This document shows, one piece after another, positions 5,941 to 7,442 of a stretch of DNA of 7,442 nt (position 1 is the first letter of the stretch; every line of letters starts with the position of its first letter). The stretch is from Caryophanales bacterium UBA3668. Lineage in GTDB: Bacteria; Bacillota_I; Bacilli_A; RFN20; CAG-826. Under the pieces are notes generated by a model. The model was not told where the DNA came from. It saw only the letters and a list, made by a program, of their open reading frames with translations, and made no database searches. The stretch spans positions 1 to 7,442 of the forward strand of contig DFJP01000044.1 in assembly GCA_002373085.1 (NCBI GenBank). Direction: 5' to 3'. The position numbers and the translations under genes were made by a program.

Positions 5941-5956
5941 AAAAGAGCAATCATTG

Positions 5957-6997
5957 ATGAGAAAATTCGACTATTCGTTTTTAGAAAAGCAGGTGCCAGC
6001 TAGATTATTAAATCTCACGGCTATTATTTATGATATAAAAGGCAAGGAAAGCGTTCGTTTACACGATAATCCAAGACTTTTTAAAAAGTTAAAAGAAAAA
6101 GCTATTAGAGATTCAATTAAAGGTAGCAACGCTATTGAAAATATTCACACCACAGAAAAACGTATTGATGAAATAGCCGCTGGTGATAATAAAGCTTTTA
6201 ATCACCCAGAAAAGGAAATCATTGGTTATAGAAATGCTCTTAACAACATTCACAAATACAACGAAAATATCATTTTTGATAAAGTAAGCATTTTATCACT
6301 TCACAAACAATTATTAGATGTCGCCGAGAGCGAAAATAGGGGCCATTTTAAAAAAGAACCAAACTTTATTAGCGAGACTAGAAACGGCAAAAAAAACATT
6401 ATCTTTGTGCCTACAGCACCCAAAGATGTTGAAGAGTCAATTGATCAAATGTTAATTGCGTTTTATGAAGCAAATCATAACCCAAACATAAATCCGTTAT
6501 TGCTGATCTCGTGCTTTATCTTGGACTTTCTTTGCGTTCACCCATTTGATGATGGAAATGGAAGAATGTCTAGACTATTAACATTGTTGTTGCTTTATAA
6601 AAGTGGTTTTGATATTGGAAGATTCATTTCAATAGAAAATATGATTAATGAGAACAAGGGCGAGTATTATCGAACGCTTCAAGAATCATCTGTAAATTGG
6701 CGGGATGGCAAAAACACATATGAACCCTTCATGTTGTACATGATTCAGATTCTATATGAGTGTTATATAAAATTAGATGAGAATGTTTTCTCTCAAATTG
6801 ATAAAAAGTTAACAAAAACAGAAAGAATAGAAAGACTTCTTTTAAATGCTTTTGTTCCTATTTCTAAAAGATCTATTCAAGATCAACTTCCGGACATCAG
6901 CGAACAATTGATTGAAATGGTTCTCTCAAAATTAACCAAAGAAGATAAAATTATTAAAATTGGTTCTTATAAAGATGCAATGTATTATCGCAAATAG
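5957..6997 (+). CDS. Fic family protein (class II, AMP-transferase type) with C-terminal winged-helix-like region
   Basis: 346 residues from ATG 5957. A TTG at 5954, one codon earlier and 6 nt after AGAG, is an equally possible start. The catalytic motif H195-PFDDGNGRMSR-206 is complete (catalytic His195, acidic D199, phosphate-binding GNGR), so it should transfer AMP from ATP to hydroxyl side chains of a target protein. The inhibitory helix motif (S/T)xxxE(G/N) is present N-terminally as S57-NAI-E61-N62, making it a class II, self-inhibited Fic protein. A flap with FVP lies near 150-152. Residues about 286-343 contain ERIERLLLNAF...SKRSIQDQLPDIS...VLSKLTKEDKIIKIG, a typical winged helix-turn-helix pattern that could bind DNA. 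The target is unknown. With an operator-like palindrome on its own promoter, autoregulation is plausible (inference). No antitoxin partner gene is visible, consistent with a built-in inhibitory helix. Confidence 0.92.
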   Translation: MRKFDYSFLEKQVPARLLNLTAIIYDIKGKESVRLHDNPRLFKKLKEKAIRDSIKGSNAIENIHTTEKRIDEIAAGDNKAFNHPEKEIIGYRNALNNIHKYNENIIFDKVSILSLHKQLLDVAESENRGHFKKEPNFISETRNGKKNIIFVPTAPKDVEESIDQMLIAFYEANHNPNINPLLLISCFILDFLCVHPFDDGNGRMSRLLTLLLLYKSGFDIGRFISIENMINENKGEYYRTLQESSVNWRDGKNTYEPFMLYMIQILYECYIKLDENVFSQIDKKLTKTERIERLLLNAFVPISKRSIQDQLPDISEQLIEMVLSKLTKEDKIIKIGSYKDAMYYRK

Positions 6998-7104
6998 TGT
7001 TAATCACCTGAAAAGGCTCGTCATACTTTGCTTCGGGTACTAAAATAGTAATAGGTTCTATCACTTATTATGCAAATATAATAAATATAAATATCAAGAA
7101 GAAT

Positions 7105-7134
7105 AGGTGATGACAGTATGTCACCTGAGTTTTT
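7105..7134 (+). terminator. Probable terminator downstream of the Fic gene
   Basis: AGGTGA (7105-7110) pairs with TCACCT (7121-7126), extendable by two G-U pairs to a hexamer loop ACAGTA, then GAG and five T's (7130-7134). The 3-nt gap between stem and T-tract makes it a modest terminator. TCACCTGA also occurs at 7004-7011, just after the Fic stop, so the 5' arm could pair with that copy instead. Confidence 0.5.
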
Positions 7135-7160
7135 AAGCCAATATTCATATCAAAATAGTC

Positions 7161-7211
7161 ACATTTATCATAGTTTTGTTTTTTTATCATTTTTTGAAAA
7201 AGGATAAATGT
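7161..7211. repeat. Perfect 9-bp inverted repeat with A/T-rich 33-nt loop
   Basis: ACATTTATC (7161-7169) and GATAAATGT (7203-7211) are exact reverse complements. Between them TTTATCAT repeats (the second copy at 7183-7190, the first at 7164-7171). It lies between the transposase terminator and the Fic terminator. It could be an RNA stem with a large loop, or sub-terminal repeats of the insertion sequence end. Confidence 0.45.
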
Positions 7212-7226
7212 TTTCTAAAATACGCT

Positions 7227-7248
7227 TATAATGATTAGTAATTAGGAG
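7227..7248 (+). promoter_or_regulatory. Possible promoter with an orphan ribosome-binding-like site
   Basis: TATAAT at 7227-7232 is a perfect -10 box and AGGAG follows at 7244-7248. No good -35 box lies at 16-18 bp (nearest TAAATG) and no ATG, GTG or TTG start follows at usable spacing. If active it would give an RNA running antisense to the transposase 3' end and carrying its stem-loops. Chance is a real alternative in DNA this AT-rich. Confidence 0.28.
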
Positions 7249-7289
7249 TTTAACTATTAAGAATCAAGCAAAATAATTGAGCTCACGTC

Positions 7290-7313
7290 AAAAAGATTCA
7301 CCACGTAGTGAAT
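7290..7313 (-). terminator. Terminator of the IS110-family transposase gene
   Basis: Reading the - strand, ATTCAC (7313-7308), loop TACGTG, GTGAAT (7301-7296), C, then five T's (7294-7290). It is a short Rho-independent type hairpin 25 nt after the transposase stop. The + strand has no T-tract after the stem. Confidence 0.55.
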
Positions 7314-7434
7314 TTCTAAAACTTCACATCAAAATCGTTACTGATGTTGCGAATTAAAAACTGATAAGTCGAAATGAGTGTGACTCGTTTCTAACTTATA
7401 AATCAATCTCACTAGTTTCCTGGCTAAGTGAGAT
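7290..7434. other. Four tandem stem-loops spanning the transposase 3' end (candidate structured RNA)
   Basis: Stem 1: ATCTCAC (7406-7412) with GTGAGAT (7428-7434), extended by TAG/CTA with one bulged A. Stem 2: ATAAGT (7364-7369) with ACTTAT (7394-7399), enclosing GAAATGAGT (7371-7379) with ACTCGTTTC (7383-7391), loop GTG. Stem 3: ACATCA (7326-7331) with TGATGT (7342-7347). Stem 4: ATTCAC with GTGAAT (7296-7313). On the - strand the series ends in a T5 tract. On the + strand the non-Watson-Crick positions are G-U rather than A-C, which favours a + strand RNA. Strand and function are undecided. Confidence 0.4.
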
Positions 7435-7442
7435 AAAGCTAC
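7338..7442 (-). CDS. IS110-family transposase, C-terminal 34 residues (rest outside window)
   Basis: The - strand frame is open from the window edge (7442) to a TAA at 7340-7338. It begins VALSHLARKLVRLIYKLE, continues through a FDL segment and ends in NSQHQ. The (A)LSHxARKLxRxIxxL helix just before the stop is what I recognise from the C-terminus of IS110/IS1111-family transposases (Transposase_20 domain) in low-GC bacteria. These DEDD/serine recombinases are guided by an RNA from the element's own non-coding end. The catalytic residues lie outside the window, so intactness cannot be judged. A terminator follows 25 nt after the stop. A chance open frame of 34 codons is possible, but the match is too family-like for me to prefer that. 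Confidence 0.6.
   Translation of the reverse strand, partial: VALSHLARKLVRLIYKLETSHTHFDLSVFNSQHQ

Follow-up and report, generated by a model that had tools for sequence, protein, structure and literature searches.

An IS110-group element behind a Shine-Dalgarno-like host sequence and the hairpins at the 3′ end of its transposase gene

The window, which is the whole 7,442-nt stretch of DNA analyzed here, breaks off inside a transposase gene, and hairpins lie closely packed across the 3′ end of that gene. Do they form an RNA of the mobile element, either a guide or an antisense RNA as a sequence-only reading had proposed, or are they accounted for in other ways? The packing is real: the predicted fold of 7280-7442 reaches −39.8 kcal/mol on the + strand (z −3.85, 0 of 200 shuffles as good) and −40.7 kcal/mol on the − strand (z −2.55, 4 of 200 shuffles as good). 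It comprises stems of 7 to 8 bp at 7294-7315, a weak stem at about 7324-7346, stems of 6 and 9 bp at 7364-7399, and stems of 8 and 4 bp with a bulge at 7406-7434. Other details of the sequence-only reading also hold: five T's follow the last hairpin on the − strand, with one C between; TATAAT is read directly at 7227-7232; and the G-U asymmetry is there, for the 27 pairs of the two coding hairpins all form on the + strand, compared with 24 on the − strand.

We regard it as probable that an IS110-group element lies behind a host Shine-Dalgarno sequence, that 7296-7313 is its terminator, that 7324-7346 arose by chance, and that the two hairpins within codons mostly reflect conservation of the protein. 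The cluster would then be explained without a new RNA.

Identity of the transposase gene

The open frame at 7341-7442 (− strand), closed by a TAA stop codon at 7338-7340 (− strand), is the final stretch, 34 codons long, of an IS110-family transposase gene, the remainder of which lies beyond the window and is seen in full relatives (L081/L111, L112, L113). L111 and L112 stop one codon before the window's stop, with TAG in place of the window's CAG. Taken alone, the 34-aa tail matched none of the Pfam and NCBIfam models, and a plasmid search returned only four weak places (best E 0.3), three of them annotated as IS110 transposases. Its identity follows from the DNA: when 7000-7442 (− strand) was compared with 20 related genomes, window positions 7442-7244 matched a contig of genome G002 with 92% identity (E 8.9e-80), and this contig carries a complete 396-aa transposase ORF whose terminal residues are nearly those of the window tail. 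G002 was the single strong match across the element, most other places listed being weak or in the host flank.

With the 396-aa transposase as query, matches at E ≤ 1e-20 came from 48 of 224 genomes belonging to the family, and matches at E ≤ 1e-85 from 24 of 279 belonging to the order. Both DEDD_Tnp_IS110 (PF01548) and Transposase_20 (PF02371) are present in all four full relatives tested, to which the last 34 codons in the window are linked by DNA identity. Among solved structures, E ≤ 1e-3 was reached only by IS621 (8wt6, E 4.4e-22) and ISCro4 (9t56, E 3.4e-24). The element in the window thus belongs to the IS110 family, IS110 group, and the 92% match to a complete relative bears out the earlier assignment of an IS110-like transposase 3′ end.

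Element ends and insertion sites

The copies found in G002, G084, and G219 have in common a left end that begins CTCGTATTATCTAATCG and a right end closing with TAATAGTTAAA, then CTCC; their flanks beyond these ends are unrelated. This common right end places the end of the window's element at 7249. Its right non-coding end, delimited by comparison with relatives, spans 7249-7337 (− strand), with the tip TAATAGTTAAA at 7259-7249; right non-coding ends measure 84 to 118 nt among relatives. The dinucleotide CT at 7247-7248 (− strand), common to the left end of L111 to L113, is probably the core by analogy with IS621. It overlaps a Shine-Dalgarno-like TTAGGAG at 7242-7248 (+ strand), so that the element ends immediately behind the host AGGAG (7244-7248), and stops in three frames come directly after the Shine-Dalgarno sequence. 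Since the element ends at 7249 and the Shine-Dalgarno sequence occupies 7242-7248, the TATAAT is host DNA upstream of it. The window's end cuts the element, and its left end and guide lie outside the window.

TTGATT at 7262-7267 (− strand) would supply the −35 half of a promoter created by joining of the right and left ends in the circle, the left half being known from relatives only. Virtual right-left junctions of the relatives gave a clean TTGA[CT]T, 17-18 nt, TATTAT promoter in 8 of 16 cases, a possible likeness to IS621; the eight elements with a left end beginning TTGTATT have no such promoter in that register. The pattern TAATAGTTAAACTCC occurs at 10 places, spread over 9 of the 279 genomes searched; four of these places (L185, L186, L188, and L189) had no right-end context and were left out, and three are repeat copies already in the set. 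The left-end tip is tandemly duplicated in L118 (1242-1290), as is the right-end tip in L128 (2776-2800), perhaps through repeated use of the same site.

The relatives insert between a Shine-Dalgarno sequence and a start codon, with the transposase gene antisense to the host gene. After exclusion of 5 of 27 left ends (short flank or duplication), 19 of 22 have, at a distance of 3 to 10 nt, a start codon (18 ATG, 1 GTG) that opens an opposite-strand ORF of at least 40 codons; at random control points, any start was found at 1244 of 6300 and ATG at 582 of 6300. Only short ORFs stand beside the left end in L128, L136, and L161. On the other side, 21 of 27 elements, the window among them, have a Shine-Dalgarno 4-mer no more than 8 nt from the right end, versus 1076 of 34965 8-mers further out; the flanks of L112 and L194, both from G084, start identically, so that a single copy may have entered the 27 twice. 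No 4-mer of AGGAGG is found at the right ends of L116, L118, L121, L123, L124, and L126. Uninterrupted metK genes in relatives have AGAAGG about 8 nt before ATG, where L123 has the element; the upstream flank of L123 agrees with the empty relative for no more than about 5 nt, which leaves just one of the two metK junctions confirmed. In a second genome (L204, G015:C24), a left-end-like sequence stands directly before metK, at the same position as in L123.

The proposed mechanism follows this pattern: the window's element would have landed directly behind the host Shine-Dalgarno sequence, with its transposase gene and the host gene running in opposite directions. The window itself displays the Shine-Dalgarno side only of such a target choice, and its missing left end presumably follows the relatives.

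The arrangement has a precedent in IS900, which reportedly targets translation initiation signals, to judge by the title of a 1997 report by Doran. IS900 belongs to Mycobacterium avium subsp. paratuberculosis, a host of a phylum other than the window's. Passages of PMC8141618 give the IS900 target motif as CATGNNNNNNTCTCCTT, which resembles the sites of our relatives in having a start codon on one side and a reverse-complement Shine-Dalgarno sequence on the other. The same passages describe an ORF, hed, opposite the IS900 transposase, whereas L081 has a single ORF of at least 60 aa among those listed, and the window's right end has the three-frame stops noted above. Since IS900 has the same arrangement, such target choice is already known; the new point is that guide and target vary together in these elements.

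Guide RNAs in the left ends of relatives

The left end of the relatives, about 240 nt ahead of the transposase, has a conserved RNA structure, made up of an outer stem (CTGTG/CACAG), an internal loop, an apical hairpin, and then a second structured part, which by eye may be the donor loop. RNAalifold on 11 left-end sequences gave 28 consensus pairs, 17 of them with two-sided change. The first loop is a target loop that fits the relatives' own insertion sites: left guides against their own flanks (n = 19) scored a sum of 117 versus 107.1 when permuted (12 of 20000 permutations as good), and right guides (n = 12) a sum of 73 versus 65.1 (79 of 20000), in both cases among elements that are kin, so that the permutation counts are not independent. 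For 6 of 19 left guides the fit to the own flank was no better than the average of the others, and L126 did worse on the right.

Passages of PMC11208160 and PMC11187229 place the bridge RNA of the IS110 group in the left (5′) end. The relatives have this IS110-group layout, with a long left non-coding end that contains the bridge RNA and a short right end. They also resemble IS621 in their DEDD_Tnp_IS110 and Transposase_20 domains, left-end guide, probable CT core, and recombinase match; IS621 targets REP elements according to a portion of PMC11208160, whereas the window's relatives target gene starts. In these relatives the target loop of the bridge RNA fits their own insertion sites on both sides, toward the start codon and toward the Shine-Dalgarno sequence, and the window copy would work likewise. 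Its target loop 3′ strand is expected to contain AATTAGGAG or a close variant and to fit CTCCTAATT, with a start codon within about 10 nt.

Because the bridge RNA is in the left end of the relatives, absent from the window, the 3′ hairpins are probably not a guide. The earlier suggestion of a guide RNA overlapping the coding 3′ end therefore finds no support. It was set aside in favor of the left end, where both the fit of own guide to own target and covariation are found. Right-end RNAs do have precedents, since excerpts of PMC11187229, PMC11208160, and PMC8450116 describe right-end guides in the IS1111 group and a sense small RNA downstream in ISPpu9, an IS110-family element with small RNAs, Asr9 and Ssr9, near both ends (PMC8450116, in part). 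An IS1111-type guide or a second right-end small RNA like Ssr9 is nevertheless a very improbable reading of the hairpins: the left end of the relatives already has an RNA that covaries and whose loops fit the targets, the right end is short, the stems past the terminator are not conserved, and, unlike ISPpu9, the window's element has no sign of a right-end small RNA. Rfam gave no match at E ≤ 5 near the hairpin region of the window. Subterminal inverted repeats of 7 to 17 bp are a further mark of the IS1111 group.

Related elements inserted the opposite way round, in sense orientation, were also found (L131 to L135, L137 to L140, L149, L150, and L152). Their right ends are followed by TATG or CATG in all 12 listed, and where the flank extends for 130 nt or more, 6 of 7 lead into an ORF of at least 40 codons. 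In 7 of 10 left flanks a −10-like hexamer (5 or 6 matches) lies 7 to 9 nt off, compared with 4.1% of control positions, and the guides of these sister elements fit their own flanks with a score of 69 versus 59.0 (1 of 20000 permutations). For the sirtuin gene at the L152 site, 3 of 14 uninterrupted orthologues (L208, L218, and L221) have TATAAT 6 to 9 nt before ATG, while the remaining 11 have no clear TATAAT. These sister elements likely insert between the −10 box and the start codon of leaderless genes, as far as the sequences at ten left ends tell.

It is tempting to join these observations in a broader scheme, in which bridge RNAs of IS110 elements in the order are tuned to gene starts as an address of general use (Shine-Dalgarno sequence plus start codon in antisense, −10 box plus ATG of leaderless genes in sense) and, in the antisense version, the transposase tail is selected for structure in the host-driven antisense transcript that would arise from each insertion; as a whole we hold this scheme to be rather unlikely. 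Guides of either kind would offer a site before almost any gene, leave codons uncut, and allow guide-to-target rules to be tested on natural insertions. The findings link two published facts, the insertion at translation starts typified by IS900 and the choice of targets by a guide RNA. Among titles and abstracts we found none that joins the two, and none that treats IS900 together with start codons and ribosome binding sites; the portion of PMC12892987 consulted contains nothing on target choice.

Terminator, coding hairpins, and host flank

The stem-loop at 7296-7313, followed on the − strand by the C and the five T's (7295-7290), makes 7290-7313 the probable transposase terminator. MAFFT alignments shifted the stems, and the arms were therefore counted at hand-set coordinates in 15 of 16 rows, L125 being left out. 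Five distinct stem sequences occur among these 15 elements, and pairs 2 to 6 each have a two-sided change, pair 6 being open in 6 of the 15. These two-sided changes favor a terminator. The stem is A+T-rich, whereas an intrinsic terminator has a stable G+C-rich stem ahead of its T-run. Shuffling is not convincing on its own: a terminator was found in 17 of 24 elements (none in the other 7) versus 12.4 in shuffles, and 6 of 60 shuffles of the window end gave one as good. A consensus terminator scan of the window did not have 7296-7313 among its sites; the sole site listed, on both strands, was a terminator-like hairpin at 7104-7127 in the host flank (+ strand).

That AT-rich shuffles yield terminator-like hairpins so often lends some weight to the view that none of the four hairpins is more than an accident or a by-product of coding, with transcription stopping elsewhere. 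We consider this view quite improbable, given that the position, the T-run, and the two-sided changes are common to three groups of elements with differing stems. Position, T-run, and covariation point to 7296-7313 with its T-run most likely ending transcription of the transposase gene. The weak stem over the stop codon (7324-7346) behaves otherwise: CATCAG...TTGATG in the window is CATTAG...TTGCTG in L111 and L112, and pairs break in these two and in L190. It was rejected as a functional stem, pairs being broken in the nearest copies, and would be due to chance.

The hairpins within codons have a narrow distribution. At 7364-7399, 14 to 16 of 16 counted antisense pairs are kept in 12 of 33 aligned elements (the two nearest groups), versus about 10 to 12 under synonymous randomization, and 2 to 110 of 1000 randomizations were as good; the remaining 21 elements are at or near chance. 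At 7406-7434, 9 to 11 of 11 counted pairs are kept in 7 of 33 elements, all of the window's own group, the next group being at chance (7 of 11). The 16 pairs include the outer pair of the next hairpin, hence 11 and not 12 for the latter, and all counts use the window-derived structure, which biases them toward the window's nearest relatives.

Could these hairpins be selected in RNA read into the element from a host promoter, antisense to the transposase? Such structure might, for example, slow or stop read-in transcription or guard the element's own expression. Antisense insertion does set host promoters upstream of the element, and the TATAAT (7227-7232, + strand) lies beyond the element end, pointing inward, so that a host-driven antisense RNA is possible and host transcription may enter the element. 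A weak promoter-like pair, TTGAAA (7194-7199) and TAAAAT (7216-7221) on the + strand, just upstream of the TATAAT, also points into the element and was the best-scoring site of a promoter scan; the scan gave 4 promoter-like sites versus a mean of 3.0 in shuffles, and such sites are therefore not significant.

For 12 of the 14 elements examined, the antisense fold of the last 34 codons surpassed that of synonymous versions (12 or fewer of 300 randomizations as good), the exceptions being L114 (30 of 300) and L118 (202 of 300), while the sense strand ranged from 0 to 296 of 300. In L115, two TTA-to-CTA changes break sense pairs (11 of 16 left) and spare antisense pairs through G-U (15 of 16). 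The last block of the gene has the lowest mean antisense z, −1.75 in 12 elements and −1.32 in 22, and in the other orientation class it averages −0.42 (10 elements), although the two classes are also of different lineage. Its excess is modest, because other blocks average down to −1.58 (12 elements) and −1.21 (22 elements). The z of L119 drops from −4.09 with pooled codon usage to −1.05 with its own, the stems of 7364-7434 do not rise above chance in most of the elements further removed, and on the + strand no T-run follows the hairpins. Selection on the antisense structure of the transposase tail is thus suggestive only, and selected structure in read-in RNA is an unlikely account of the coding hairpins; conserved protein sequence would mostly explain them.

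The contig that makes up the window is chromosomal and belongs to an uncultured Bacilli relative, whose MetG gene (111-1703) has a best identity of 92% to MAGs labeled uncultured Erysipelotrichaceae, and rumen or other forestomach samples are named in several other records among the MetG matches listed. A gene for a Fic-domain protein (5954-6997) lies between rlmD and a repeated sequence; the DNA at the end of this gene is 94% identical in L084. The repeated sequence, 7039-7120, is found again in relatives (L083, L084, L101, and L102), immediately 3′ of the rlmD homologue in L083 and elsewhere 3′ or 5′ of accessory genes (Fic, AAA ATPase), a pattern that suggests a point of cassette integration where rlmD ends.
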